DNA from: Haloarcula taiwanensis
Lineage (GTDB): Archaea; Halobacteriota; Halobacteria; Halobacteriales; Haloarculaceae
Direction: 5' to 3'
Length of the DNA stretch: 64,000 bases
Assembly: GCA_002844335.1 (NCBI GenBank)
Contig: CP019154.1
Span: 1,798,001 to 1,862,000 of the forward strand
The position numbers and the translations under genes are program-made. Shown one piece after another: positions 22,214 through 36,714 of this stretch. Each line of letters begins with the position of its first letter. The first letter of the stretch is position 1. A model generated the notes under the pieces. It saw only the letters and a list, made by a program, of their open reading frames with translations, ran no database searches and was not told the origin of the DNA.

Positions 22214-22302
22214 ACCCTGCCTTCTCGGCTCTGGCAGAAAGGCGCTTCGTGCATGGCTGGTGGGGATAATCCTTTAGTCGACAGACGGAGGAGTGAGGTA
22301 TG

Positions 22303-24072
22303 ATGACAGTAGCCAACCGGGACCGGATGCTCCACGTCGACCTGTCGTCGGCGTCAGTCGAAAGCCGTCCGGTCCCAGAGGGTTGGCGTCGCCAGTTCGT
22401 GGGCGGCAAGGGACTCGGCGCTCGGTACCTGTACGACGAACTCGACGCCGGCACCGACCCGCTTGGCCCCGAGAACCTCCTGTTGTTCATGCTCGGGCCG
22501 GTATCGGGGCTGTTGCCGGGTGAGACGAGATATGCCGCAGTCACGAAGTCGCCCCTGACCGGCGGCTTCCTCGACTCGTACGCGGGCGGGACGTTTCCGG
22601 ACACGCTAGCCGGCGCGCTGCGGAACCACATCGGGATTCTGGTCACCGGGCGCGCGCCGGAGCCGGTCACACTTGTCGTGGAGGACGACGGCGCGACGGT
22701 CGAACCCGCCGAGACGTGGGGACAGGACACAGCCGAAACTGACGCGGCGTTCCCCGAGGCCGCAGTGGCGTGTATCGGGCCGGCCGGCGAGCAGGGCGTC
22801 GCATTCGCCACCATCGCCTCCGACGGCGGCGAACACCACGCCGGGCGAGGCGGTGCCGGGGCGGTGATGGGCGCAAAACGGCTGAAAGCCGTCGTCGTTC
22901 GCGGCGACCCGCCGACGGACCTCGCGGAGTTACGGGAACGGTACGCAAAGCGGTACCGCGAGGGCGACACCGGCCAGTGGCTACAGGCCAGCGGGACCGT
23001 CGAGACGGTCGATTTCGCCAACGAGGTCGGCGCGCTCTCGACGCGCGGCTGGGAGGACGGCCAGTTCGAGGGCGCCGACGGCGTCGGCATCGAGGCCGTC
23101 CAGGAACTCGCCGCAGGCCGGGAGTACGACGACGAGGGTAGCCCCGGCGGCTTCCGCGTCCAGACCGAAGACGGCGAGACCATCCCGCGCGGCGCGACAG
23201 CGATGAGTCTCGGGGCCGGGCTCGGCATCGACGACTTCGATGCCGTGGCGGCGCTGGGCGAGACCTGCAACCGGCTGGGGCTCGACCTCATCAGCGCCGG
23301 GAGCGCCGTCGCGTGGGCCATCAAGGCCGGCGATGCCGGCCTGCTCGACCGCTCGCTCGAGTACGGAAGTCCCGACGATGCGCAGGCGCTCCTCGAAGAG
23401 ATTGTCGCGCGGGAGACAGCGCTCGGCGACGCTCTGGCCGACGGTGTCGATGCGGCTTCAGACCGTCTGGGCGGAGCCGACCTCCTGCCGACGGTCAAGG
23501 CCATGGAACTGCCCGCCTACGACCCCCGCGGCGCGCGGAGCATGGCGCTGGCGTACGCGACCAGCGACCGCGGGGCCTGCCACCGGCGGGCGCTCCCCAT
23601 CGAGCGGGAGGCCTTCGACGGCGACTGGAGCCCCGAGCGGGCGGCCGCAGCCGTCATTCGCGAACAGGACCAGCGCTCGGCACTGTGGTGTCTCATCGTC
23701 GACGACTTCGTCGGCGACGCCTTCGACGACCTCGGCGCGGAGTGGCTCGACGCTATCGGCCTCGACACGGACGACGACCTCGCGACGGTCGGTGAGCGCG
23801 TCTGGACACTCACTCGCCTGTTCAATGTCCGCGAGGGCGTCTCGCGGGCCGACGACGAACTCCCGGCAAAGCTACAGGAACCGCTCGATTCGGGACCGAA
23901 CGCGGGCGCGGCGGTCGACGCCGAGTCTTTCGACGCGATGCTCGACGCCTACTACGGCCAGCGCGGCTGGGACGCCGACGGCCGGCCCACCCGCGAGACG
24001 ATAGAGCGACTGGGCCTCACGGACCCACTCGACCCGTCGACGCTCCCGGCAGGCAGGACACTCGGAGAATGA
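22303..24072 (+). CDS. aldehyde:ferredoxin oxidoreductase family protein lacking N-terminal cluster cysteines
   Basis: A 589-residue AOR family protein. Domain 1 is well kept: MLHVDLSSASVESRPVP, FVGGKGLGARYLYDEL, LMLGPVSGL-like FMLGPVSGLLPG, KSPLTGGFLDSYAGG and the molybdopterin-binding HAGRGGAGAVMGAKRLKAV. The region that normally holds C-x2-C-x3-C of the [4Fe-4S] cluster (residues about 270-290) reads LAAGREYDDEGSPGGFRV with no cysteine; a later Cys in ALWCLIVDD is where the fourth ligand might fall. The cluster is therefore probably absent or rebuilt, and ferredoxin transfer would be affected. It is encoded next to mobA and coupled (ATGA) to the acidic gene downstream. Assigning an aldehyde as substrate is not safe. 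Confidence 0.85.
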   Translation: MTVANRDRMLHVDLSSASVESRPVPEGWRRQFVGGKGLGARYLYDELDAGTDPLGPENLLLFMLGPVSGLLPGETRYAAVTKSPLTGGFLDSYAGGTFPDTLAGALRNHIGILVTGRAPEPVTLVVEDDGATVEPAETWGQDTAETDAAFPEAAVACIGPAGEQGVAFATIASDGGEHHAGRGGAGAVMGAKRLKAVVVRGDPPTDLAELRERYAKRYREGDTGQWLQASGTVETVDFANEVGALSTRGWEDGQFEGADGVGIEAVQELAAGREYDDEGSPGGFRVQTEDGETIPRGATAMSLGAGLGIDDFDAVAALGETCNRLGLDLISAGSAVAWAIKAGDAGLLDRSLEYGSPDDAQALLEEIVARETALGDALADGVDAASDRLGGADLLPTVKAMELPAYDPRGARSMALAYATSDRGACHRRALPIEREAFDGDWSPERAAAAVIREQDQRSALWCLIVDDFVGDAFDDLGAEWLDAIGLDTDDDLATVGERVWTLTRLFNVREGVSRADDELPAKLQEPLDSGPNAGAAVDAESFDAMLDAYYGQRGWDADGRPTRETIERLGLTDPLDPSTLPAGRTLGE

Positions 24073-24800
24073 CAGACCAGATAGACCTCGACGACCTCGA
24101 CGTACAGGACGACGAAGAGACGCCGAACCGGGGCGACTGGTTCTGGAGCGGGGAGGGCGAACCCGAGGACGAACCGGTGCCAGCCGGGGACGGGGCGGCA
24201 TCGGCTGACGACGCCACGGACGCGAGCGCAGACGCGGACAGCGAATCGGCCGACAGCCCGGGCGGCCAGCCGGTCCCTCACGTCCCGCGGGAGAACAAGG
24301 ACAAGCCGGTCGGCATCCCGACGGACAGCGGCGGCGCGGGCGGCGCGGCCGCGGCCGACACCGACTCAGCCTCGAATGTCGCCGAGGACCCGGACGCTGG
24401 CGAGGAGGCCGTCGAAGCGAGCGGTCCGCACGGCGGCGGCATCGACGACATGACGATGGCCGTGACCTACGACGCGGCCCGGCAGTTCGCCGACCCGCAA
24501 CTGGTGTTCCGTGAGGCGCGGGGATGGGCCGACTGGGTCGGTATCGTCGGCGACGTCGACGCCTTCGTCATCAACAAGTTCCAGCGCGACCACGGCATCG
24601 ACGCCGACTTCTTCAGCGGCGCGGGCCAGGAGCCGGCCGAGCGCCTCGCCGACATCGACGAGCACTCGATGTTCTACGCCGAGCGGATGGTCCTGGTCGG
24701 CCGCCCGGACGACGAACCCGTCGCCGAGCGGGCCGGCTGGGAGTTCGTTCCGCTCGCCGACGCCGCAGAGAAAGCGGACTGGGACCTCGTCGACGGGTAA
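24069..24800 (+). CDS. acidic protein with C-terminal globular domain, coupled to the AOR homologue
   Basis: A 243-residue protein. Residues 1 to about 125 are low-complexity and Asp/Glu/Ala/Gly-rich, and look disordered. The C-terminal 115 residues look folded: DDMTMAVTYDAARQFADP, ARGWADWVGIVGDV, INKFQRDHGIDADFF and EHSMFYAERMVLVGRPDD. It resembles an uncharacterised haloarchaeal domain (DUF7124-like). The start ATG overlaps the AOR homologue's stop, so the two proteins are probably made together and may interact. No cysteine or metal motif is visible, so it is not an obvious replacement electron carrier. Confidence 0.65.
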   Translation: MTDQIDLDDLDVQDDEETPNRGDWFWSGEGEPEDEPVPAGDGAASADDATDASADADSESADSPGGQPVPHVPRENKDKPVGIPTDSGGAGGAAAADTDSASNVAEDPDAGEEAVEASGPHGGGIDDMTMAVTYDAARQFADPQLVFREARGWADWVGIVGDVDAFVINKFQRDHGIDADFFSGAGQEPAERLADIDEHSMFYAERMVLVGRPDDEPVAERAGWEFVPLADAAEKADWDLVDG

Positions 24801-25807: not shown

Positions 25808-27025
25808 CTACGGGGCCGGGAAGGCCCGCTTGTCGCGGGGCGGGACGTAGAAGTTCGAGCGTGACACCACCTCGATGAACTCCAGCAGACCGTTGTTCTG
25901 CCGGTCCCGGAGCTCTTCGTGTTCTTCCCGGAGCCACCAGCCGTTCATCGCGTCCCGGACCTCTTCGAAGTCACGCGGGTGCTCCTGTAGCGAGAGGAAG
26001 TGCAGGCCGGCCTGACCGCCGTCAATCGTGTTGAAGTCCCGCCGGAGAAGAATCGGCTCTCCGTCCTTGCGGGCGCGGGCCACCTTCTCGAAGTGGCCGA
26101 CCTCCCCCTCGCTGCTCGCGTGCTCGCGGACCACGTCGGCGAAAGGGAGGTCGCCCCTGTCGATGTCCGCCGGCGAGAACTCCGCAGAGAACAGTCGCTT
26201 GACGCGGTCGGACTGGGCGAGTTCCCACCAGGTATCGAAGGCCTCGTTGATTCGTGAGAGGTGTATCGTCGTCCCGCCGGCGTAGGGACCGTCGTCGATT
26301 GTAACGCGGTCCTCGCTGGCCTGGGTGCCGGACCGGCCGGCAAAAAAGCCAGAGAACATATAAGACTCCTCGGGGATGTCGGCAGGGACGCCTTCGGCAT
26401 CAGCGTGGGCCGCCGGGAGTCCCTCGCCGATGAAGCCGCCGCGGCGGTCGGCGACGGAGAACACGTCACCAAGCCGGCCCTGAATCTCCGTATCGGCCAG
26501 CCTCGGCCGCGTGTCGAACATCGCGGATTCTGCGGCGGCGAGGTGCGAGGGAACGTCGCTCGCGAGAACGAGCATCGCGTCGAAAGACTGCAGGTCGGGG
26601 TCGTCCGTCCGGGAGAGGGCTCGCGGGCTGCGTATCGGGGACGTATCGAGCGACCCGTAGGTGTCGAAGTAGTTCGTCCCCCAGGCGAGCATGTGCAGGA
26701 GCCCTGCACTGTTGAATTCATACGCGTCTTCCAGTGTTCGCATCGCTAGCTCGACAGTCTCCGCGGCTGCATCCGACGGCTCGGTGTCGAGGTCGAGCAT
26801 GAACAGCCGGAAATGATGTGGCAGCAGGTCGTTGCCGGCGGCATCGCTCCGGAGGCGCTCGTTCCAGGCGTGTTGCCGTATCGGGAGTTCGTCGGCTCGC
26901 GGGTTCGGGTCGAGGTCACCCGTCGGTGACTCCGCTTGTCTGGCCAGCAAGGACGAACAGCCGCTGAGACCGGCCGCTCCGGTGAGTGCAGAGAGCCGAA
27001 GCAGCAGTCCGCGGCGCGAAGTCAT
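25808..27025 (-). CDS. Tat-exported DyP-peroxidase-like lipoprotein
   Basis: A 405-residue protein with a short twin-arginine signal (TSRRGLLLRL) and lipobox (LSGCSS), so it is exported folded and lipid-anchored. The body resembles dye-decolorising peroxidases: GGFIGEGLP where the family has GxxDG (Asp replaced by Glu here), GPYAGGTTIHLSRINEAFDTWW, a GHFEKVARAR segment where the proximal heme His is expected, and ILLRRDFNTIDGGQAGLHFLSLQEHPRDF near the end. Heme binding is therefore plausible, but peroxidase activity is uncertain. It reads divergently from a cluster of three small membrane proteins. The haloarchaeal family is usually listed as DUF7405-like. Confidence 0.7.
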   Translation of the reverse strand: MTSRRGLLLRLSALTGAAGLSGCSSLLARQAESPTGDLDPNPRADELPIRQHAWNERLRSDAAGNDLLPHHFRLFMLDLDTEPSDAAAETVELAMRTLEDAYEFNSAGLLHMLAWGTNYFDTYGSLDTSPIRSPRALSRTDDPDLQSFDAMLVLASDVPSHLAAAESAMFDTRPRLADTEIQGRLGDVFSVADRRGGFIGEGLPAAHADAEGVPADIPEESYMFSGFFAGRSGTQASEDRVTIDDGPYAGGTTIHLSRINEAFDTWWELAQSDRVKRLFSAEFSPADIDRGDLPFADVVREHASSEGEVGHFEKVARARKDGEPILLRRDFNTIDGGQAGLHFLSLQEHPRDFEEVRDAMNGWWLREEHEELRDRQNNGLLEFIEVVSRSNFYVPPRDKRAFPAP

Positions 27026-27122
27026 GGTATACTATCACAGGGGTGGAACTACGGGGAGAAAAACTTTGTCTCAGGAGCACAGGTCGCAACGGTTTTTTAG
27101 TTGCCAGTCCGTACCACATTCC

Positions 27123-27272
27123 ATGTTAACTATACCCATTCACTCGGAACCGGGACTCAATCTCCCGTTTCCACCCGATATGGGCGCGGCAGTCCTCGGT
27201 GTCGGGCTGGTCGTCCTCGCCGTCATCACGTACGATATCTATCAGCAGCACTGGGCCGGAGAGGGTACCTGA
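27123..27272 (+). CDS. small single-helix membrane protein
   Basis: A 49-residue protein, MLTIPIHSEPGLNLPFPP then one hydrophobic helix (GAAVLGVGLVVLAVITYDIY) and a short polar tail. Its stop overlaps the next start (TGATG). It opens a run of three overlapping small membrane genes. The function is unknown; association with the divergent exported DyP-like protein is inference from position. Confidence 0.6.
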   Translation: MLTIPIHSEPGLNLPFPPDMGAAVLGVGLVVLAVITYDIYQQHWAGEGT

Positions 27273-27547
27273 TGGCCACCGAGCAATCGAATTCCAGGCT
27301 GACCGCCGTTTCACTTCTCGGATATCTCCGAATTCTGGTTTACACCCTCGCTACGCTGCTGGCGCTGTCACTGCTTGTTGTCGGCACAATCGGCCTCATC
27401 GCCGAACTCAAGGGGAGCTGGCACTGGCAGATTCACCTCGAATCGACCATCAGCTACATCGGGCTGTTCGTCAGCCGCCTCCTGATGGTCCTCGTGCCGC
27501 TGTTCGTGGTCCTCGTCGTCGGTCGACGGGTGGTCCCCGATGCGTGA
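27272..27547 (+). CDS. two-helix membrane protein
   Basis: A 91-residue protein with membrane helices at about 27-48 (TLATLLALSLLVVGTIGLIAE) and 64-85 (IGLFVSRLLMVLVPLFVVLVV). It overlaps the previous gene by one base and the next by 8 bases. There is no recognisable motif. It is probably the middle member of a small membrane complex with its neighbours, judged only from overlap. Confidence 0.65.
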   Translation: MATEQSNSRLTAVSLLGYLRILVYTLATLLALSLLVVGTIGLIAELKGSWHWQIHLESTISYIGLFVSRLLMVLVPLFVVLVVGRRVVPDA

Positions 27548-27773
27548 GCGACTGCGTGTGAACCCATTCGGGGTAGTCGCGGCGGTGTCGGTCACGCTGC
27601 TCTGCGTGCTGGTCGCGGGTGCGGGAGCGGTCGCAGTCATCGCACAGTCGGTCAATACCTGGCGGTCGCTCTTTCTCATGGAACAGGCGATGGCGTTCCT
27701 GCTGCCCGCGGTGAAGGTCCTGCTGGTCGTCGGCCTCGTCGCCAGCGTGGGGCTCGTCCTCCGCATCCAGTAG
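27540..27773 (+). CDS. two-helix membrane protein
   Basis: A 77-residue protein with helices VVAAVSVTLLCVLVAGAGAVAVIAQ (region about 12-36) and FLLPAVKVLLVVGLVASVGLVL. It starts inside the end of the preceding gene (8-base overlap), the tightest coupling of the cluster, and converges with torD one base before its stop. The function is unknown. Confidence 0.65.
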   Translation: MRERLRVNPFGVVAAVSVTLLCVLVAGAGAVAVIAQSVNTWRSLFLMEQAMAFLLPAVKVLLVVGLVASVGLVLRIQ

Positions 27774-27774
27774 C

Positions 27775-28401
27775 CTAGCCGATCTGGGCGACGATTTCGT
27801 CCTCGAAGCGGACCAGGCCCTCACAGACTAGCGCCGCCGCGAGGAACAGTCCGTCGTCGGCCTCCTCGCGCATCTCGTCGGTGAAGTCGACGACCCACTC
27901 GCTGAGGTGTTGCTCGATGAACACCCGCTCGTAGCCGACGGTCTCCTCGTCGCCCTCGCGCTGGCGCTCGATGAGATAGCGCAGGAACGCCAGTTCGACG
28001 GCGATGAAGTCGTCCTCCTCGGGGTACTCCTCGGGGGGTGCCCACCCCGCCGCGGCGTAGCTGGCATCGACCTCGGCCAGCCCCTCGCCGATGAACTCCG
28101 TGTCCTCGCGGTAGTTCGTCTCGTGGGGCAACACCGGCGGGCGCGGGCCGACGAGCAGGTCCGTGTACTCCCGTTCGAGGTCGTCACGCACCGCCGACAC
28201 CGACCGGTCCGCGTTGTCGTCGATCCACGCCCGTAGCATCTCGAAGCCCTCGTCCAACTGGTCGTTGATGGAGTCGCCCGGCAGCTGCACGTCGCCGCTC
28301 AACAGCCGCTCGACGAACGCCTCGTCGGGCACGTCCCAGAACACGTCGATGACGAAATCGACCAGTTCGAGGCGGGCCTCGTAGACGGCCGCGTCGTTCA
28401 T
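27775..28401 (-). CDS. torD: TorD/DmsD-family molybdoenzyme chaperone
   Basis: A 208-residue all-helical acidic protein. Family marks: EREYTDLLVGPRPPVLPHETNY (the Y-x-x-L-F/L-x-G-P...-P-x-E-S/T motif of TorD chaperones, residues about 75-95) and DFIAVELAFLRYLIERQREG. Such chaperones bind the Tat signal of a DMSO-reductase-family enzyme and hold it for cofactor insertion. The natural client is the Tat-exported formate dehydrogenase alpha subunit at 30766. It overlaps the upstream HdrA/MvhD-like gene by 4 bases (ATGA), so the two are made together. Confidence 0.9.
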   Translation of the reverse strand: MNDAAVYEARLELVDFVIDVFWDVPDEAFVERLLSGDVQLPGDSINDQLDEGFEMLRAWIDDNADRSVSAVRDDLEREYTDLLVGPRPPVLPHETNYREDTEFIGEGLAEVDASYAAAGWAPPEEYPEEDDFIAVELAFLRYLIERQREGDEETVGYERVFIEQHLSEWVVDFTDEMREEADDGLFLAAALVCEGLVRFEDEIVAQIG

Positions 28402-30530
28402 CGTTTCTCCCCCTGATCGAACAGCAGACGGCTCCGACAGTCGCTACAGTACTCGAAGACCGAGTGGTCGGCGTCGGGGGCCAGGCCCTCGACCTGACTG
28501 CCGACCTCCTCCTCGATTTTGGTCGCGGAGGCGACGCTGGTGAACGGCTTGCCACAGCGGACGCATTCGAGCATGTCGCCGTCGTGGACGGTCACCCAGG
28601 CCTCGCCGCCCCGGTTCTCCGGGAGCAGGGAGCGGTCCAGCCCGTCGTGCATCGTAATCGCCGTCTCGGGACACCCCTCCTCGCAGAGCCCGCAGTTCAC
28701 GCAGTCCGCGTGGTTGAACGCCAGTTCGCCCTCGCCGGTCCGCTGGATAGCGTCGGTCGGACAGAGGTTCGTACAGGTCGGCGTCAGCGTGCACGCGTCG
28801 CTGACGTCCATGACGCCGAAGTCCTTCAGCCCGCGAATTACCTCCCGCTCGGGGTCGACGTGGTCGAGGATGGTTCGGACGCTCTCTAGAGTCCAGCCGT
28901 GGCTGTCGAAGTCGGGGTTGGGGCGGGGTTCCTCGCGGTCGGCGTCGCTGCGGCCCGTCGCCTCGTAGTCGCCGGCCGGTATCGGCGTCTCGTCGAGGCC
29001 GAACTCGACGAACCCGGACAGTGACTCGGCGAAGGCCTCGGGGTTGCCCGCTTCCGGGGCGAAAAAGCCGACGCGGTCGCCTAGGCCGAGGTCGGTCGTC
29101 GCCTGATTGAGCCGGTCGACGAGGTCCTGCTTGGGGTCCGGCCCGGAGTGGAGACAGGAGCCGCCACAGCCGACGATGGCGACGCCGTCCGCGCCGGCCG
29201 CCAGCGCGTGCATGACGTGTGCCTCGCCGACCGTGTCGGTGCAGTTGACCCGGACCGGGAGGATGGGCGGGTAGTCGAGGTCCCCCGACTGGACGGCCTT
29301 CCGTCCGTGCGCCCGGAGCCGCTCCATGGCGTACTCCGAGCAGACGAACGCGATGACCTGCGTATCGATGCCGTCGTCGCCGCGCGAGAGCAGGCCACCG
29401 TCGGCGTCGTCCTCCAGCAGCGCCTCGACTTCGCGTGCGAGCCGGCGGTTCGACGGCTCGCGGAGCTGTGTCGCGCCCGTCGGACAGGCGCTCGTGCAGG
29501 CCCCGCAGTTCTCGCAGGCGGCCTCGTCGAACTCCACGGAGTCGATGGTCGGCCGGTCGACCGCGCCGTGGGGACAGGCGTCGACGCAGGCCGTACACCC
29601 CTCCTGACTGGACGCGCCAGCGGCACAGACGTCCATCTCTAGGTCGAGGAACTGCGGCTTCTCGATGCCGCCCAGTTGCGATTCGACGGCGGCGATAGTG
29701 CCGGCGTCGACCGGGCCGGTGTAAAAGCCCAGCCGGCCGCCGCGGGCGTCGTCGCGGCCGCCGGGGTAGATGACCTGGTCGACCTCGACGGTGCGCGTGA
29801 CCCCCGCCAGGTCGATGGCGTCGGTCGGACAGGTGTCCGTCCACGCGCCGTCCGGTGCGTCCGGGTAGATGTCGACGGGGAACTCCGTCACCATGCCGTC
29901 GGGACCCTCCCGCACGCAGTCCATGCAGTCGATGCAGTCGTCGGTGACGCGGGCTTCCAGCGTGAGTTCGTACTCGCCGTACGAGCCCTCGATGTCGACA
30001 ACCCGCCCGCGCTCTATCGTCACATTGCTCAGCCCTTCCACGTCAGCGAAGTCCTGCCCGTCCGCGATGACCGTCACGTCGGCGTCGTCGGTCAGCGACC
30101 GGGCGGTCCCCGGGTCGCCGACGACGGCGACGCGGTTGCCGGCGTCTTTCGACACCGTTCGCGAGGGTGCTTCCTCGCGAAGTCCCGCGCGTGTCGCGTT
30201 GATGAGGCGGGCCGTCTTGTCGGTTGCCGCCGCCTCGCCGTGGACCCAGGCGTTGGTCTCCCGATGGTCGACGAACACCGACGCCTCGGGGTGCAGGCCG
30301 TGCTCGTCCGCAAGCCCGCGAATGCGGTCCTGACACGACGGTTCTGGCGTCGTCGCGATGATCTGGTCGAGGTCGTACTCCTCGATGACCTGTGACATCC
30401 CGGCCAGCCCGTCCTGGCAGAGCAGTTCGGAACTGGCGACGACATCGACATCGTCGACACCGTCCCGTACCGCTTCGAGGTCGATGTTACACGACCCCCC
30501 ACAGGAACACACAAAGGCACCTATATTCAT
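28398..30530 (-). CDS. HdrA/MvhD-like multi-cluster iron-sulfur protein
   Basis: A 710-residue cytoplasmic protein. The N-terminus GAFVCSCGGSCNIDLEAV resembles HdrA; a short Rossmann-like VAVVGDPGTARSLTDD stands where HdrA has its FAD domain, but most of that domain is missing. Then come ferredoxin-type clusters: CIDCMDC with CPTDAI, CTACVDACP with CENCGACTSACP, an MvhD-like domain (VIAFVCSEYAMERL, VRVNCTDTVGEAHVMHAL, GADGVAIVGCGGSCLH), then CTLTPTCTNLCP with CVNCGLCEEGCP, and a terminal CxxC pair set (CVRCG...CSDC). It looks like an electron hub taking electrons to or from formate oxidation. It is coupled to torD and divergent from fdhA. The canonical MvhD CC-x-W-C ligands are reduced here. 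Confidence 0.82.
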   Translation of the reverse strand: MNIGAFVCSCGGSCNIDLEAVRDGVDDVDVVASSELLCQDGLAGMSQVIEEYDLDQIIATTPEPSCQDRIRGLADEHGLHPEASVFVDHRETNAWVHGEAAATDKTARLINATRAGLREEAPSRTVSKDAGNRVAVVGDPGTARSLTDDADVTVIADGQDFADVEGLSNVTIERGRVVDIEGSYGEYELTLEARVTDDCIDCMDCVREGPDGMVTEFPVDIYPDAPDGAWTDTCPTDAIDLAGVTRTVEVDQVIYPGGRDDARGGRLGFYTGPVDAGTIAAVESQLGGIEKPQFLDLEMDVCAAGASSQEGCTACVDACPHGAVDRPTIDSVEFDEAACENCGACTSACPTGATQLREPSNRRLAREVEALLEDDADGGLLSRGDDGIDTQVIAFVCSEYAMERLRAHGRKAVQSGDLDYPPILPVRVNCTDTVGEAHVMHALAAGADGVAIVGCGGSCLHSGPDPKQDLVDRLNQATTDLGLGDRVGFFAPEAGNPEAFAESLSGFVEFGLDETPIPAGDYEATGRSDADREEPRPNPDFDSHGWTLESVRTILDHVDPEREVIRGLKDFGVMDVSDACTLTPTCTNLCPTDAIQRTGEGELAFNHADCVNCGLCEEGCPETAITMHDGLDRSLLPENRGGEAWVTVHDGDMLECVRCGKPFTSVASATKIEEEVGSQVEGLAPDADHSVFEYCSDCRSRLLFDQGEKR

Positions 30531-30570
30531 TAATCATGCAAAATCCTGTCGAAGTAATAGAACTTGCGGA

Positions 30571-30613
30571 GTGTTCACATATGTGTTCGTGAACACAACC
30601 CCCAAAATTTTGG
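30571..30613. promoter_or_regulatory. palindromic elements in the fdh/hdr-torD divergent region
   Basis: GTGTTCAC (30571-30578) is followed by the palindrome GTGTTC-GT-GAACAC (30583-30596), and 5 bases later comes the perfect 12-base palindrome CCAAAATTTTGG (30602-30613). The region is AT-rich between two GC-rich operons and 235 bases long, with 40-83 bases to the leftward start and about 153-195 to the fdhA start. The repeated GTGTTC half-sites fit a dimeric regulator controlling both directions. The regulator is unidentified. Confidence 0.6.
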
Positions 30614-30765
30614 CCCGTCAAAAAATCCCCAGTAATAATCATGGCAAAATATGACACCTTTTATCATACATGACAGTGAATTTGTAGCACGCCTAGTTAG
30701 ACAATGACAAACCAGATTGCGTGGCAAACGTGGACAGCATCGGTAATGGGTGGGCACCATTCACC

Positions 30766-33700
30766 ATGAGTACACAACAGGACCCAGTCTCACTGGACCT
30801 CGACCGGCGCTCGTTTATGAAAGCGAGCGCCCTCGCAGGGGGCGTCGCCCTCGGCGTCAGCGGCGCTGGTCGGGCACTTCAGGAGGACGGCGAGGAAACG
30901 GACGGAGCAGACACGGACACCGAACTGACCAAGACAATCTGCAACTACTGTTCGGTGGGCTGTGGCTTCCGCGGCGAGCGACAGGGTAATTCCTTCGTCG
31001 GCATGGAGCCATGGCACGAACACCCGATAAACGCCGGGTCGCTGTGTTCGAAAGGGGCTGGCATCTACGAGACCGAACACTCCGAGAAGCGTCTCAAGCA
31101 CCCGATGATACAGGAGGACGGGGAGTGGCGCAAGATGGGGTGGAACGAGGCCTACGACCGTCTGGCGACGGACATCCGGGCGCTGTGGCCCGACGACGAC
31201 ACCTCACCGGACGAGGCCGTCGACGTCGACGCGGAGCACAGCCGCGAGAGCGTGATGTTGCTCGGCAGCGCCCACCACTCCAACGAGGAGGCCTACGCCA
31301 TCCGGAAACTGGCGGCGTTCATGGGCACGAACAACATCGACCACCAGGCCCGGATTTGCCACTCCACGACGGTGACTGGGCTGGCAAACACCTGGGGCTA
31401 CGGCGCGATGACGAACACCGTTCAGGACTACCGGAATTTCGACCTGAATATCATCATCGGCCAGAACCCCGCCGAGGCACACCCCATCGCGATGCAGCAC
31501 ATCCTCGAGGGGCAGAAACGCGGCGGGACCATCCTCAATCTGGACCCGCGGTTCACCAAGACCTCGGCCCACGCCGACGAGTTCATGCGGTTCCGGCCGG
31601 GCACCGACGTGGCCCTGATGATGGGTATCATCAAAGAGCTCCGGGACAAGCACGGGCTCGCGATGGACCCGGACGCGGACGACAGCGGGCAGAACATGCT
31701 GACCGACCGCGTCCAGGGCTGGGAGGACGTCGACGCTGAACTCGACCAGTACGACAAGGAGACCGTCGAGGAGATAACCTGGGTGTCCGCCGAGGACATC
31801 GAGCGCATCGCCGACATGATAGACGAGGCCCGGCCCCACATCCAGATCGAGTGGGCGATGGGCGGGACCCAGCACAACAACGGGACCCAGAACATCCGCT
31901 CGTACGCGATGGCGAGTCTCGCTTCCGGGAGCGCGGCCCGGAGCGGCGGCGGCCTCCAGGTCATGCGTGGCCATGCAAACGTCCAGGGTGCGACCGACCT
32001 CGCGGTCGCGAGCCATATCCTGCCGGGGTATTACGGTCTCTCAGCCGGCGGCTGGTCCTGGTGGGCCGAAATCTGGGACCGGACCCCGGAGACCAGCGGC
32101 GACACATCGTTTGCGGACATGTACAACCGGTTCGAACTGATGCCGCCGGAGAAGTATGTCCGCCAGAGCCCGAACTACGAAGGGAGCGAGGACGCCGACT
32201 CGCTACCGCCGAACGCCGACCACGGGCCGAACAACCCGGCGGAGAACTCGATGATGTTCCAGAACGGGCTGACGGTGGCCCGCTGGTTCGAGTCGGCGCT
32301 CGACCGGGAGGACCGGTACCAGGAGACGCCGATATACCAGCCCGACCAGACGAAAATCGCGTTCTTCTGGGGGCACTCGGCGAACTCCATCAGCGAGATG
32401 GAGCAGATGAAAGAGGGGATGGAGAACCTCGACCTGCTGGTCGTTATCGATGTGTTCCCCTCGGTCGCGAGCGTCCTCCCGGACTACGAGGACGGCCCGC
32501 CGGTGTTGCTGTTGCCGGCGTCGAGCCAGTACGAACACTACCGGTCGCTGACCAACACGAACCGGTCGGTGCAGTGGTCCGAGCCGGTCCGCTCGCCGGC
32601 CCACAACTCCAAGCCGGACCTCCAGATAATGCAGGAGCTGGCCGGCTATCTCGGCTTTGGCGAGCACTTCGACTGGGGCGCAGGCTCGGAGCTGTACAAC
32701 GGCAAGTCCAGCTACGAGGGCGTCGTCCGGGAGTTCAACCTCGGGACCAACACCATCGGCTACCGGCAGACCCCCGAGCGCCTCCAGCAACACTTAGAGT
32801 ACGACTGGGCGTTCTCCAACGAGGACCTCAAAGGGGCCGAAGGAACGCCGGTCGCAGGCGAGTACTGGATGCTCCCCTGGCCCTGCTGGGGCGAGGACCA
32901 CCCGGGCACCCCGATTATCTGGAACGACGACTTGGACCCCAACAACGGAGGGCAGGACTTCCGGACCCGCTGGGGCGTCCAGGCACCCACGCCGGAGGAC
33001 TGGGAGGCGATGCCGACCGACGACGACTACCCGATGCAGGAGACGCTCGACGCCGTCGGCGACCGGTACGAGAGTCAGGAAGAAGCGCTTGACCTGACCC
33101 GTGCGCCGTACGACCCAGAGTGGGCCGACGACGACGATACGGCCGCGGACGGCATGATTCACGGCATCCCGGAGTACCCGGGCTGGAAGGTGACGCCGCC
33201 ACAGAGCCTCGTCGACCCCGAGCAGGAGGTCCAGCCGGACGAACTCACCATCCCACAGCAGTACGCGCTCGACAATCAGGAGTCTGTGTACACCGCCGCG
33301 CAGGCGCTGAACGACCCTGACACCGGGAGTGCAGTGTTCGACGAGTACCTTGAAACGATGATTGGCGAAGGCGTCGACCCCGAGTTCTACGAGGAGTACG
33401 ACTACGCCCAGCCCGACGCGCCGACCGGGCGCGGCCGGGCACGGGCCGTCGTCTGGAGCTTCCTCGACAAGGTGCCGGTCCACCGTGAACCCATCGAGGG
33501 GCCGGACACGGAACTGCTGAACGAGTGGCCAGCGAACGGCCAACAGCGGAACTTCTACCGCCTCGACCAGAACAACCTCGTCGAGCAGGAACGGGCCACA
33601 GATATAATCCACAATCAGGACGACGGTCCAGATCTTGACACCATCATGACCAGCGGGCGGCAGGTCGAACATCAGGGCGGCGGCGCGGAGACGCGAAACA

Positions 33701-34167
33701 ACATCCACACCGCCGACCTCCAGCCGCACATGTACGCGGAGATTACGCCGAACAAGGCGGAAGAACTCGGCGTCGACGGCGGTGATCTCGTGGTCATCTC
33801 CTCGACGGACCGTGGCTCCGTGCTGGTGAAAGCCCGCGTGACGGACCGGCCGAACGACCAGGAGGTGTTCCTGCCGTACCACTGGGGCGGCGTGTTCAAA
33901 GGCGAGAGTCTGGAGGACAAGTACCCGGACGGCCACGTCCCCTACGCCATCGGGGACTCGGCGAACGCCATCACGTCCCGGGGCTACGACGTAGAGACAC
34001 AGATGCAGGAGACAAAGGTGTCGATGGTCGCGGTCAACCCGGCGACACCGGCGGTACTGGACCGGTACAACATCGACGTGGACCTCGACTTCGACTTCCC
34101 GCAGGACGTGAACGACGTCGGGACCCAGAAGGACTTCGATGTCCGCGACAACTCGACGGTGCAATGA
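30766..34167 (+). CDS. fdhA: formate dehydrogenase alpha subunit (molybdopterin-dependent, Tat-exported)
   Basis: A 1133-residue DMSO-reductase-family enzyme. The Tat signal is DRRSFMKASALAGGVALG. The N-terminal [4Fe-4S] set is ICNYCSVGCGF with a later GSLCSKGAG. The active-site segment reads DHQARICHSTTVTGLANTWG then GAMTN, matching the formate dehydrogenase pattern where the Sec or Cys Mo-ligand is followed by His; here it is Cys. The C-terminal dinucleotide-binding domain holds MYAEITPNKAEELGVDGGD and YHWGGVFKGE. It oxidises formate on the outer face of the membrane. The ATG at 30766 sits directly before the Tat signal. Length exceeds usual FdhA by about 120 residues, from inserts around residues 480-560 and 800-880. 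Confidence 0.9.
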   Translation: MSTQQDPVSLDLDRRSFMKASALAGGVALGVSGAGRALQEDGEETDGADTDTELTKTICNYCSVGCGFRGERQGNSFVGMEPWHEHPINAGSLCSKGAGIYETEHSEKRLKHPMIQEDGEWRKMGWNEAYDRLATDIRALWPDDDTSPDEAVDVDAEHSRESVMLLGSAHHSNEEAYAIRKLAAFMGTNNIDHQARICHSTTVTGLANTWGYGAMTNTVQDYRNFDLNIIIGQNPAEAHPIAMQHILEGQKRGGTILNLDPRFTKTSAHADEFMRFRPGTDVALMMGIIKELRDKHGLAMDPDADDSGQNMLTDRVQGWEDVDAELDQYDKETVEEITWVSAEDIERIADMIDEARPHIQIEWAMGGTQHNNGTQNIRSYAMASLASGSAARSGGGLQVMRGHANVQGATDLAVASHILPGYYGLSAGGWSWWAEIWDRTPETSGDTSFADMYNRFELMPPEKYVRQSPNYEGSEDADSLPPNADHGPNNPAENSMMFQNGLTVARWFESALDREDRYQETPIYQPDQTKIAFFWGHSANSISEMEQMKEGMENLDLLVVIDVFPSVASVLPDYEDGPPVLLLPASSQYEHYRSLTNTNRSVQWSEPVRSPAHNSKPDLQIMQELAGYLGFGEHFDWGAGSELYNGKSSYEGVVREFNLGTNTIGYRQTPERLQQHLEYDWAFSNEDLKGAEGTPVAGEYWMLPWPCWGEDHPGTPIIWNDDLDPNNGGQDFRTRWGVQAPTPEDWEAMPTDDDYPMQETLDAVGDRYESQEEALDLTRAPYDPEWADDDDTAADGMIHGIPEYPGWKVTPPQSLVDPEQEVQPDELTIPQQYALDNQESVYTAAQALNDPDTGSAVFDEYLETMIGEGVDPEFYEEYDYAQPDAPTGRGRARAVVWSFLDKVPVHREPIEGPDTELLNEWPANGQQRNFYRLDQNNLVEQERATDIIHNQDDGPDLDTIMTSGRQVEHQGGGAETRNNIHTADLQPHMYAEITPNKAEELGVDGGDLVVISSTDRGSVLVKARVTDRPNDQEVFLPYHWGGVFKGESLEDKYPDGHVPYAIGDSANAITSRGYDVETQMQETKVSMVAVNPATPAVLDRYNIDVDLDFDFPQDVNDVGTQKDFDVRDNSTVQ

Positions 34168-34178
34168 GGTGAGCTAGT

Positions 34179-34841
34179 ATGTCAACAGGAAATGAAGTAA
34201 TGCACGACGGCGTGATGAGTACCGGCGAGGACGCGCGCATCTTCCCGGACGTCGAAGCGTGCATCGACTGTGGCGGCTGTGTCGTCTCCTGTAAGCGTAC
34301 GTGGGATGTCCCACGGGACGAACAGCGAATCAGTATCGCGACGATGCTCGAAGGCCAGGAGGCAGCCTCCGGGCTCAACGCGAGCAGCGGTCGAGCGATG
34401 GAACAGAGCGAATCGCCCGGCGAGACCGCGGTGCCGATGCAGTGTTACCACTGCTCGAACGCGCCGTGTGTGTCGGTGTGTCCGACCGACTCGCTCATCT
34501 CGAAGGAGAACGGCTTCGTCCGGGTCCGAGACGACCTCTGTATCGGCTGTCAGTACTGCCTCTCTGCGTGCCCCTTCGGCGCGCCCCAGTTCCCCGACGA
34601 GGACGAGGGGGTCGCCAACCTCGTCGGCAGCGGCGGCAATATGGACAAGTGTACCATGTGCGAGGAGCGCCAGGACGTCGGCAAGGGGCCGGCCTGCGCC
34701 GAGGAGTGTGCCACTGACGCGATTCTGGTCGGAACGCCTGAACAGATCTCGGACGAACTGGACAACAGGGACAGTGGCACCTTCTTCAACGACGTCGCCA
34801 TGGACATCATCTTTGGCGAGGACGCCAGTGAGTTCCAATGA
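34179..34841 (+). CDS. fdhB: formate dehydrogenase beta subunit (ferredoxin-type electron-transfer)
   Basis: A 220-residue protein with four [4Fe-4S] cysteine sets: CIDCGGCVVSCKRTW, CYHCSNAPCVSVCP, CIGCQYCLSACPFGAP and CTMCEERQ with CAEECATDAI. This is the FdnH/DmsB layout. It carries electrons from the alpha subunit to cytochrome b. It has no own signal and would be exported with alpha. The start lies 11 bases after fdhA with an RBS-like GAGGTGAG (34167-34174). It overlaps the next gene by 4 bases (ATGA). Confidence 0.93.
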   Translation: MSTGNEVMHDGVMSTGEDARIFPDVEACIDCGGCVVSCKRTWDVPRDEQRISIATMLEGQEAASGLNASSGRAMEQSESPGETAVPMQCYHCSNAPCVSVCPTDSLISKENGFVRVRDDLCIGCQYCLSACPFGAPQFPDEDEGVANLVGSGGNMDKCTMCEERQDVGKGPACAEECATDAILVGTPEQISDELDNRDSGTFFNDVAMDIIFGEDASEFQ

Positions 34842-35248
34842 CAAACACAGAAGACCTTCCAGAGGTGAACGGCTACAGCCGCGTCTCGGTGCTCGTCAGC
34901 GCGGTCGTCGGCCTCGTGGTCGCAGGGCTGGCGCTGTTCTGGGCACAGGGATTCAGGCTCGGCTACGAGTCGCTGTACCGGGTCAATCCAAGCGTCGAGG
35001 GCGGCGGTATCGGCGCGGACTGGGTGTTCGGCAACACCATCCCCGCGCTCGATTTCCTCATCGCGCTCATCCACGCGGCCGACGTCATCATGGGCGCGTT
35101 CATCCTCGTGATGGTGTTCATCCACTGGGCGGCGTTCCAGCGGCTCGCCGGCCAGATGCGCGACCCGGGAGAGGACGTGGGCGAGGCCGTCGCGGCCGAC
35201 GGTGGCTCGCCGGCTCCCGGTGAAGGACAGGGAGGTGACAGCTCGTGA
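34838..35248 (+). CDS. two-helix membrane protein inside the fdh operon
   Basis: A 136-residue protein with two membrane helices (VSVLVSAVVGLVVAGLALFWAQ near residues 12-33, and LDFLIALIHAADVIMGAFILVMVFIHW near residues 67-95), a loop between them and a Gly/Asp-rich cytoplasmic-type tail. It contains His and Trp residues in helix 2 (IHAAD, FIHWAAF), so a heme or quinone contact is conceivable. It is coupled to fdhB and to the cytochrome b gene by 4-base overlaps on both sides. Bacterial Fdn operons have no such gene; I do not recognise the family. Confidence 0.75.
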   Translation: MTNTEDLPEVNGYSRVSVLVSAVVGLVVAGLALFWAQGFRLGYESLYRVNPSVEGGGIGADWVFGNTIPALDFLIALIHAADVIMGAFILVMVFIHWAAFQRLAGQMRDPGEDVGEAVAADGGSPAPGEGQGGDSS

Positions 35249-36288
35249 GCAACCTAGACCACGGGAAGTTCACGCGCGTGACGACCCTGTTCCACTCGCT
35301 GCTGGGCCTTGACGTGTTCCTGCTGTTTTTCACCGGCTACGCCATCATGTTCAACGACGAACTGTGGTGGATGCTGACGCTGATGGGCGGGGCCTCCGGT
35401 GTGACGGCGATTCACCGCATCACCGGCATCGGGCTGGTCGCGCTCGTCGTCTTCTGGATCACACTGCAGGTGATCTCCTCGACCGGACGGAGCAACTTCG
35501 CGAAGATTCTCCCGGCGAAAGACGATGTTGACGCGTTCATTCAGGACATCCAGTTCGTGCTCGGCCGGGTCGACGAACGGCACCCGAGCGCCCGGCAGTT
35601 CGCCGGCTACAAGGCCGACGAGGTCCCGCTGCTGTCCTACATCGGCAAGGGCGTCGTGTTCATCTTCTCCATCGAGCTGACCCTGCTTGCGATTTCGGGG
35701 CTGCTCATCTGGAGCAAGACCGGCCTCGCTGCGATGTTCCAGACCAAGGCGGCCGCGATGGCCTTCGTGACGTTCCACGGCCTGCTGGGCGTCATCATGC
35801 TGATGGGGGTCATGTTCCACATCTTCGAGCACGGGATGCACCCCGCCTTCTACCCCGTCGAGACGAAGGCGTTCATCCCCCGGAGCATGGTGCCCGAGCA
35901 CCACGGCGACGACGATGAGGAGCCGGACACCACGGGGATTGAGCGCCTCTCGCTGTCCCCGTCGTGGCGAACGGTCTCGACTGTCTTCGGCGCGATGACC
36001 GTCATCGGCATCGTCTCGGTGCTCATCGGGAGCATCTTCGACGAGGGCTATCCGGTCCCGCGTGAAATTGCCATCGGCGGCGGACCGTCGAGCATCCTGT
36101 TGACCGTCGGTATCAACCTCGGGATGGTCGTGCTCGGCGTCGGCCTCGTGCTCTCGATGTACGGAAACGTCCTTCGCATCCGCTGGGAACAGCAGTTAGA
36201 GCAGGAGCGGGAGCCGACGACTGCGGCCGACGGAGGCGAACCCCAGACCGACGGCGGCCAGCCTGAATCAGACGACACCGAGAACTGA
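35245..36288 (+). CDS. fdhC: formate dehydrogenase gamma subunit, cytochrome b
   Basis: A 347-residue membrane protein starting at a GTG (GTGA overlap). Helices: LLGLDVFLLFFTGYAIMF, ITGIGLVALVVFWITLQV, GKGVVFIFSIELTLLAISGLLIW, TFHGLLGVIMLMGVMFHIFEHG, then two near the C-terminus (VFGAMTVIGIVSVLIGSIF and LLTVGINLGMVVLGVGLVLSMY). Heme-ligand candidates are the His in KFTRVTTLFHSLLG, HRITG, TFHGL and MFHIFEHG. It should anchor FdhAB and reduce the quinone (menaquinone in haloarchaea). The last pair of helices, after an acidic loop, is an addition to the usual four-helix FdnI. Confidence 0.85.
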   Translation: MSNLDHGKFTRVTTLFHSLLGLDVFLLFFTGYAIMFNDELWWMLTLMGGASGVTAIHRITGIGLVALVVFWITLQVISSTGRSNFAKILPAKDDVDAFIQDIQFVLGRVDERHPSARQFAGYKADEVPLLSYIGKGVVFIFSIELTLLAISGLLIWSKTGLAAMFQTKAAAMAFVTFHGLLGVIMLMGVMFHIFEHGMHPAFYPVETKAFIPRSMVPEHHGDDDEEPDTTGIERLSLSPSWRTVSTVFGAMTVIGIVSVLIGSIFDEGYPVPREIAIGGGPSSILLTVGINLGMVVLGVGLVLSMYGNVLRIRWEQQLEQEREPTTAADGGEPQTDGGQPESDDTEN

Positions 36289-36315: not shown

Positions 36316-36714
36316 CTACGCGATGAGTGCCTGTCCTTCCGGCGATAGCTCGACGCCGACATCCTGTCGGGTCTGCTCCTGAATCTGGTTCAGGTTCCGC
36401 GTCAGGACCTTGAGAATGTCTTTGGGTTCCGGATAGACGAGCATGTTGCCGTCGCCGTCCTCCATGACCAGCTGTGTGTCGGAGAGCGCGACCTGATCGC
36501 CCTCGATGCTGGCGACGATGACATCCAGTGCTTCCGCGCCGCCGGGGTCGCCTTCCGTCACCTTCGTGATATAGAGCGCATCAAGCCCGATGAGGTCCTT
36601 GTACTCGCGGACCTGTTCGGCGCAGGCGACCATGTCCTGTGTCACCGCCGTCTTCTGATCATTCCCATGAGCACCCTCGTAGCAGTGTTTACAGATTCGC
36701 AGTTCGAGACGCAT
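36316..36714 (-). CDS. conserved hypothetical protein with a CxxC motif
   Basis: A 132-residue protein starting MRLELRICKHCYEGAHGNDQK; the CKHCYE pair may bind a metal. The rest, YKDLIGLDALYITKVTEGDPGG and LDVIVASIEGDQVALSDTQLV, then PKDILKVLTRNLNQIQEQT, is acidic and mixed alpha/beta. The start at 36714 is chosen because the longer frame is rich in residues rare in its neighbours. It converges with the fdh operon, 27 bases away. The function is unknown. Confidence 0.6.
   Translation of the reverse strand: MRLELRICKHCYEGAHGNDQKTAVTQDMVACAEQVREYKDLIGLDALYITKVTEGDPGGAEALDVIVASIEGDQVALSDTQLVMEDGDGNMLVYPEPKDILKVLTRNLNQIQEQTRQDVGVELSPEGQALIA

Follow-up and report, generated by a model that had tools for sequence, protein, structure and literature searches.

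A cytoplasmic polyferredoxin encoded beside an exported formate dehydrogenase in Haloarcula taiwanensis

The formate dehydrogenase locus

The window analysed here is a 64,000-nucleotide stretch of the Haloarcula taiwanensis genome (contig CP019154.1, positions 1,798,001 to 1,862,000; GCA_002844335.1). It contains a formate dehydrogenase (FDH) operon encoding FdhA, FdhB, a two-helix protein and a cytochrome b, which is divergent from a gene pair for a 710-residue polyferredoxin, here called PFd, and the chaperone TorD. A preliminary description of the sequence had placed these six genes at the locus. All of them are found there, the family matches obtained are strong, and the gene order is kept in 48/48 type-A haloarchaeal loci sampled. 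Its view of one overlapping operon holds for the downstream genes, where FdhB and the two-helix gene, and the two-helix and cytochrome b genes, overlap by 4 bp each, but not for FdhA and FdhB, which are 11 bp apart and therefore do not overlap. The divergent gap between PFd and FdhA measures 235 bp. A candidate operator in it (GTGTTCAC-N10-GTGAACAC, 30571-30596) was rejected, being conserved neither in other genera nor in the same-genus locus L035.

FdhA (30766..34167, plus strand; 1133 aa) matches the Pfam families Molybdopterin, Molydop_binding and Fe4S4 and appears to be an exported catalytic subunit of the Cys198 type. Among solved structures it is closest to the tungsten/Cys enzyme from Shewanella oneidensis (PDB 9VAP; 9vap_A, E=7e-208). 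The Tat signal and the ARICH active-site cysteine described earlier are both present: the motif RRSFMK lies near the N-terminus, with R14, R15 and K19 conserved in at least 98% of 64 homologues, and the same level of conservation holds for Cys198-His199 in ARICHS, Lys96 in CSKG, Arg401 in RGHANVQG and the cysteines of the motif C59-x2-C62-x3-C66...C94, which accounts for one [4Fe-4S] cluster. FdhB (34179..34841, plus strand) has 16 conserved cysteines in the alignment of homologues, as in a four-[4Fe-4S] electron-transfer subunit. Its best NCBIfam match is FDH3_beta (NF038355), at 136 bits against a curated cut-off of 240, and an FdnGHI-style C-terminal membrane helix was not found in it (maximal 19-residue hydropathy 0.98).

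The two-helix protein (34838..35248, plus strand), a haloarchaeal subunit containing two membrane segments, occurs in 48/48 type-A loci and has no Pfam or NCBIfam match. H79, H96, R48, G86, W97 and R102 are invariant, His79 and His96 lying within one helix. That it represents a split-off N-terminus of bacterial FdhC was rejected, as hhalign gave no meaningful match. The cytochrome b (35245..36288, plus strand, GTG start; Pfam Ni_hydr_CYTB, 1.5e-19) is FdhC/FdnI-like and would serve as anchor and quinone module. His17, 57, 178 and 192, invariant in 53 homologues, form the four-histidine pattern of a di-heme protein and presumably correspond to the ligands of FdnI. Taken together, the locus is best explained as encoding a predicted Tat-exported formate:quinone oxidoreductase of FdhA, FdhB and cytochrome b with a haloarchaea-specific two-helix subunit, in agreement with the enzyme type proposed earlier; the Tat motif, active site, four-cluster FdhB and four-His cytochrome b are those of the FdnGHI/FDH3 kind.

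Around these genes, torD (27775..28401, minus strand) encodes a TorD/NarJ-family protein (Pfam Nitrate_red_del, PF02613, 95.7 bits against a gathering cut-off of 22.2). It overlaps PFd by 4 bp, confirming the reported coupling of the divergent iron-sulfur protein to torD, and lies at most 200 bp from PFd in 48/48 type-A loci. On the other side lies a gene for a small CxxC protein (36316..36714, minus strand), with C8-x2-C11...H16 when started at MRLELR and no Pfam or NCBIfam family match. An aldehyde ferredoxin oxidoreductase (AOR) family gene with AFOR_N and AFOR_C domains is located at 22300..24072 on the plus strand. It is a frequent neighbour and probably not part of the FDH itself.

Domain architecture of the polyferredoxin

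PFd (28398..30530, minus strand) was characterized using Pfam, NCBIfam, alignments and an AlphaFold model (pLDDT 87.8), for which Foldseek returned matches to HdrA, HycF and MvhD only. It consists of an HdrA-like N-domain, an FAD-less linker with one four-Cys site, a dicluster ferredoxin, an MvhD/FlpD domain and a second dicluster ferredoxin with a HycF-like Cys quartet. The earlier HdrA/MvhD-like label is therefore correct by domain, yet it takes no account of the missing HdrA FAD domain or of the third, HycF-like module. The alignment to 9sfi_A takes in residues 3-143 and 296-370, the regions of the N-terminal Cys domain and the C-terminal dicluster ferredoxin of HdrA; the N-terminal Cys domain and ferredoxin-MvhD tail are shared with methanogen HdrA/HdrA2. 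Unlike in those proteins, the FAD-binding thioredoxin-reductase domain with its GxGxxG is absent: the alignment breaks there, about 415 residues are reduced to about 150, and the score is about one tenth of curated cut-offs. Flavin bifurcation by an HdrA-like hub was accordingly rejected.

The MvhD/FlpD domain is recognized by Pfam (PF02662, 66.3 bits against a gathering score of 22.3) and by fold (TM by target 0.72-0.76 to MvhD chains), including chains of FDH-Hdr complexes (7bkb_F). Unlike MvhD/FlpD, it is fused inside a larger protein. Its four cysteines are kept in haloarchaeal PFd and lost in the bacterial PFd examined, and haloarchaeal PFd has extra Cys sites that are not in bacterial PFd. 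The C-terminal module (residues 578-701; 28428..28799, minus strand) resembles HycF by profile, by sequence and by fold (7z0s_F, TM 0.59 by target), while PFd scores 50.8 bits against the whole NCBIfam HycF/HyfH model (PRK12387), under its cut-off of 204. As in Escherichia coli HycF, a dicluster ferredoxin is followed by paired cysteines, CxxC-x35-CxxC compared with CxxC-x34-CPxC, and every one of the 45 aligned sequences, archaeal or bacterial, has the quartet C656-x2-C659-x35-C695-x2-C698. In the formate hydrogenlyase of E. coli, this quartet of HycF coordinates a metal where HycF meets the formate dehydrogenase FdhF (PMC9474812). HycF belongs to a stable complex whose FDH is cytoplasmic, whereas the FDH of this locus is exported and the module forms the tail of a larger protein.

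Neither a signal peptide nor a membrane segment was found in PFd. Judged from its sequence, it is an FAD-less chimera, a predicted chain of iron-sulfur centres without flavin. Its predicted sites comprise several [4Fe-4S] clusters, one cluster at the FlpD site, a three-Cys site (C580/C586/C620) and a mononuclear metal at the quartet. So many redox centres could equally mean that PFd serves as an independent electron carrier.

Co-inheritance and genomic context

PFd and FdhA occur together in 74/294 Halobacteria. FdhA is present in 74/77 genomes with PFd, PFd in 74/77 genomes with FdhA (Fisher p 9e-62, uncorrected for phylogeny; three exceptions each way). The situation set beforehand as a refutation, with the 710-residue gene mostly away from fdhA, is thus not what was found, and the proposed tie between a cytoplasmic HdrA/MvhD-related protein and FDH is borne out. 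Not every case follows this pattern. One haloarchaeon has FdhA and no PFd (G129), a second FDH copy has no local PFd (G265), and in seven genomes PFd accompanies an AOR block and a different FDH with TorD not adjacent; G258, one of these seven, has PFd about 20 kb away from FdhA. Exported enzymes of the Arr/Phs type, which differ in substrate and membrane anchor, are likewise found with PFd and TorD, indicating that the shared task is the exported Mo/W enzyme and not formate. An ortholog of the CxxC protein (at least 185 bits) is found in 71/294 Halobacteria, all 71 with PFd and FdhA.

In bacteria, FDH3 loci carry the same polyferredoxin beside TorD, FdhD, MoeA or Mrp. The neighbourhood of PFd homologues includes TorD, DUF3305/3306 and Mrp; for Shewanella, Thiothrix and Halomonas it includes FdhD, and for SAR324 MoeA together with an ABC transporter. 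The H. taiwanensis locus shares the divergent polyferredoxin arrangement with alphaproteobacterial FDH3 loci, and with S. oneidensis FdhAB (9VAP) the best FdhA match, the Cys active site and a four-cluster beta subunit. Unlike these systems, it adds the two-helix subunit, its FdhA is about 180 residues longer and its genome lacks FdhD; FdhB stays under the FDH3_beta cut-off, and neither DUF3305/DUF3306 nor the small Tat protein was detected in haloarchaeal loci. The study of the S. oneidensis locus covers small Tat accessory proteins and catalytic subunits, not PFd (PMC3623810), and a literature search for a functional study of this polyferredoxin found none. Its identification as ArxB2, the ferredoxin of arx clusters, was not established and was set aside.

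Another related system is the membrane FDH of the haloarchaeon Halodesulfurarchaeum formicicum, encoded by HTSR_1573-1576 (PMC5437934). It is likewise exported, with cytochrome b and TorD, and PFd (about 30%) is directly downstream in loci L101/L102. Its FdhA is about 45% identical, the two-helix subunit is missing and all genes are on one strand. In the FDHs for which maturation has been investigated, FdhD is required for placing sulfur on the Mo/W atom (PMC6239281, PMC13197769). FdhD was detected in 0/294 Halobacteria by PF02634, and none scored above cut-off by TIGR00129 in 12 genomes, positive controls being detected; it is apparently absent even from the formate-grower Halodesulfurarchaeum.

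Possible roles of the polyferredoxin

We consider it somewhat more probable than not that PFd acts in the cytoplasm as a docking and maturation factor for exported molybdo/tungsto-enzymes; docking on FDH as such is likely. PFd and TorD would form a divergent cytoplasmic accessory set for FDH, in which the HycF-like module, and probably the MvhD domain, docks on the FdhA-FdhB pair still in the cytoplasm. With TorD, PFd may load, reduce or redox-test the metal centres, after which the enzyme would be exported. Since PFd has no signal peptide or membrane segment and FdhA an almost invariant Tat motif, the two could meet only before export. This reading builds on gene anatomy, domain make-up, FAD-domain loss, FdhA co-inheritance and the bacterial maturation-gene context; from these we infer physical docking, its timing and electron delivery as the action.

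Alternatively, PFd might be permanently associated, from the cytoplasmic side, with the inner face of FDH/cytochrome b and exchange electrons between a soluble ferredoxin pool and either formate or quinol. In methanogen FDH-Hdr complexes, MvhD takes electrons from FdhAB, and the 7bkb_F match, the chain of predicted clusters with MvhD and HdrA-like domains and the constant linkage with FDH all fit this reading. We nevertheless regard it as unlikely, because PFd lacks the HdrA FAD domain, so that bifurcation is not expected, and any membrane segment, the same protein accompanies Arr/Phs-type enzymes, and its bacterial context is one of maturation genes. The same observations speak against the formate-specific outside-to-inside electron link put forward in the preliminary description; of its two suggestions, hub or cofactor maturation, the latter fits better, given FdhD, TorD, MoeA and Mrp in bacteria.

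A further precedent is BamB of class II benzoyl-CoA reductase, an AOR-family enzyme that is served by HdrA/MvhD-like subunits. By analogy, PFd could accept the electrons of the nearby AOR-family enzyme, linking aldehyde oxidation to the FDH neighbourhood. An AOR gene lies within the 18 kb of sequence taken in 35/48 type-A loci, and AOR-DUF7124-PFd-CxxC remain together in type-B genomes. This appears quite improbable, as the family occurs in 147/294 genomes, many without PFd and many without FDH, which excludes AOR as an obligate partner, and no AOR is near bacterial and Halodesulfurarchaeum-like PFd loci. Least probable is that haloarchaeal PFd, perhaps with the CxxC protein, took over the supply of the sulfido ligand to the Mo/W cofactor from FdhD: the absence of FdhD from Halobacteria, the restriction of the CxxC protein to genomes with PFd and FdhA and the extra Cys sites agree with it, yet 9/9 PFd-bearing bacteria keep FdhD, which means that PFd by itself did not arise to replace it, and the CxxC protein is missing from Halodesulfurarchaeum-like genomes and was rejected as a hidden FdhD by fold (poor model, pLDDT 62.7; no match below E=0.05).

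A whole archaeal class with exported FDHs, apparently including a formate-grower, is thus without detectable FdhD. Active haloarchaeal FDH might then be made without it, PFd, TorD and, in most lineages, the CxxC protein forming an FdhD-independent route of Mo/W cofactor sulfuration or activation, a proposal we regard as improbable. In both Bacteria and Archaea, a conserved uncharacterised polyferredoxin accompanies exported FDHs; one of its modules is known so far from the docking surface of a formate dehydrogenase. Most likely, PFd helps to build or check the exported FDH ahead of its export.

Gene organization and the exported enzyme

All six genes that the preliminary description had placed at the formate dehydrogenase (FDH) locus were found at their positions, and Pfam and NCBIfam agreed on the assignment of FdhA, FdhB, the b-type cytochrome and the TorD/NarJ chaperone. 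FdhA (30766–34167, plus strand) bears a Tat motif, and its active site, of the Cys type, is intact; its nearest solved relative in a PDB comparison (9VAP, E = 7e-208) is the tungsten/Cys enzyme FdhAB of Shewanella oneidensis (PMC13397495). The gene order is FdhA, FdhB, two-helix protein, cytochrome b, with 4-bp overlaps at the FdhB/two-helix and two-helix/cytochrome b junctions. The closest NCBIfam family of FdhB is FDH3 beta (136 bits, under the cut-off of 240), and the hydropathy of its sequence indicated no membrane helix. His 17, 57, 178 and 192 of cytochrome b are all invariant. The two-helix protein (34838–35248, plus strand) has no match in Pfam or NCBIfam and occurs in 48/48 type-A loci (FdhA closely related to that of the window). 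Its second membrane helix holds two invariant His at a distance of 17 residues, a spacing compatible with possible heme or quinone contacts. The protein shows no similarity to bacterial FdhC. The enzyme as a whole belongs to a known kind of formate dehydrogenase, of which it is a new haloarchaeal form.

The gene of the 710-residue polyferredoxin PFd (28398–30530, minus strand) lies 235 bp from FdhA on the opposite strand and overlaps torD by 4 bp. The divergent gap contains an inverted repeat (30571–30596, GTGTTCAC-N10-GTGAACAC) that is absent from the other loci checked. A DUF7405/DyP-peroxidase-like protein (25808–27025, minus strand) and two small membrane proteins (27101–27547 and 27540–27773, plus strand) are kept beside TorD-PFd in about half of the type-A loci. 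An AOR-family enzyme (22300–24072, plus strand) followed by a DUF7124 protein (24069–24800, plus strand) are common FDH-locus neighbours, and their linkage to PFd is kept even with a different FDH type. In addition, a small CxxC...H protein of no known family (36316–36714, minus strand) is a second candidate accessory of the locus. Orthologs scoring at least 185 bits are present in 71 genomes, each of which also has PFd and FdhA; that cut-off was fixed after the gap in scores from 185 down to 157 bits had been viewed. Paralogs about 50% identical are found elsewhere.

Architecture of the polyferredoxin

PFd comprises an HdrA-like N-domain (residues 3–143, by sequence comparison), a short stretch with a four-Cys site (C199/202/205/234), a dicluster ferredoxin (302–349), an MvhD/FlpD domain (392–509), a second dicluster ferredoxin and the quartet C656-x2-C659-x35-C695-x2-C698. 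Its ferredoxin and FlpD domains were recognised by both Pfam and NCBIfam. The earlier label "HdrA/MvhD-like" holds insofar as both domains were matched, but the FAD domain of HdrA is lost: about 415 residues there correspond to only about 150 in PFd, without the GxGxxG motif, and PFd was therefore rejected as an electron-bifurcating HdrA. The AlphaFold model (pLDDT 87.8) gave significant PDB matches to HdrA, MvhD and HycF only. In HycF, the same Cys quartet binds a single metal where HycF contacts the formate dehydrogenase FdhF (PMC9474812). An alignment of 45 PFd sequences contains 30 invariant columns, including the whole quartet and every Cys of both dicluster ferredoxins. In haloarchaeal PFd, the second dicluster includes one cluster site with only three Cys (C580, C586, C620), the fourth being replaced by Thr; the stretch 580–590 has CTLTPTC where distant relatives have CTLC, and this site could possibly hold a [3Fe-4S] cluster.

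Distribution of PFd

The 710-residue protein was not found mostly away from fdhA in other genomes, the outcome that the preliminary description would have taken as a refutation. PFd (E ≤ 1e-20) was detected in 77/294 Halobacteria genomes and FdhA also in 77 (type A, 64; the distant type B, 13), the two occurring together in 74 (Fisher p = 9e-62, without correction for shared ancestry). PFd is divergent from FdhA in 48/48 sampled type-A loci (median gap 238 bp), with TorD within 200 bp of PFd in each; these loci were chosen by their PFd hit, and the genome-wide counts are free of that selection. Three genomes carry PFd without FdhA (G160, G214, G287) and three FdhA without PFd at this threshold. 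Among the latter, profile search recovered a divergent PFd beside FdhA in G052 and G182 and none in G129, whose related FDH locus (L076) has NrfD as its anchor. A second FDH copy in G265 (L080) is complete for FdhA-FdhB-two-helix-cytochrome b and TorD without a local PFd, a further PFd being present elsewhere in that genome. In seven genomes FdhA is more divergent (about 40% identical). Six of these have PFd within an AOR-DUF7124-PFd-CxxC block that lies 1–6 kb from FdhA, at a distance from TorD, and in the seventh, G258, PFd and the CxxC gene are about 20 kb from FdhA. It is very doubtful that PFd is a partner of the AOR enzyme.

One scan of GTDB genomes found clear PFd relatives outside haloarchaea, most adjoining FDH3-type FdhA and FdhB (roseobacters, Shewanella, Thiothrix, Halomonas, SAR324, deltaproteobacteria). 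The remainder, with four haloarchaeal loci (L096, L097, L111, L160), adjoin Phs/Arr-type molybdoenzymes that have a four-cluster subunit; TorD is usually present as well, and some of these loci also carry NrfD, Mrp/ApbC or arsenic genes. PFd, a Phs/Arr-like molybdoenzyme and TorD occur together at L096, L111 and L160 (Natronorubrum bangense plasmid NZ_CP031306.1), with NrfD at L111 and L160 and arsenic-resistance genes at L160; such loci may encode a haloarchaeal reductase complex, for arsenic respiration or another function. In bacteria, the genes next to PFd include those of DUF3305, DUF3306, TorD and Mrp, as well as FdhD in Shewanella, Thiothrix and Halomonas. In SAR324 they include MoeA and an ABC transporter whose PBP_like_2 binding protein may serve tungstate. 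An earlier paper (PMC4464133) remarked on "hypothetical ferredoxins" within TorD-fdh operons, and a literature search limited to open-access papers found no functional study of PFd.

A proposed role in enzyme maturation, and the FdhD gap

Since FdhA is exported and PFd retained inside the cell, an encounter of the two would have to precede export, except if PFd makes contact with the membrane complex on its inner face. A respiratory hub linked to outside formate oxidation, which the preliminary description had offered beside cofactor maturation, is an unlikely role for PFd. It is favoured instead that PFd would dock on the immature enzyme pair inside the cell and there deliver electrons or check cofactors, because PFd shares a module with the FDH-contacting part of HycF, its pairing with TorD is constant in type-A loci, bacterial PFd has maturation-gene neighbours, and PFd also accompanies enzymes of other substrates. 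Docking is likely, and redox maturation is a plausible action of PFd.

Maturation of E. coli FDHs requires FdhD, which inserts the sulfido ligand (PMC6239281), and FdhD is likewise required in Methylorubrum (PMC13197769). The FdhD/NarQ family was detected neither in the window's genome nor in any of the 294 Halobacteria, 77 of which have FdhA of this kind, although a very divergent form may escape the search. This search was positive in 8 control genomes, three of them archaea, and in 9/9 PFd-carrying bacteria; a second FdhD profile gave nothing above cut-off in 12 genomes. Formate use has been reported for Halodesulfurarchaeum formicicum (PMC5437934), and FdhD was not detected either in G001, a genome whose gene order suggests strain HTSR1 of that species. 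An FdhD-independent activation route in haloarchaea is considered quite improbable. The FdhD gap in haloarchaea is the unexpected element of the analysis, and PFd, so far unstudied, is a recurrent accessory-protein family.
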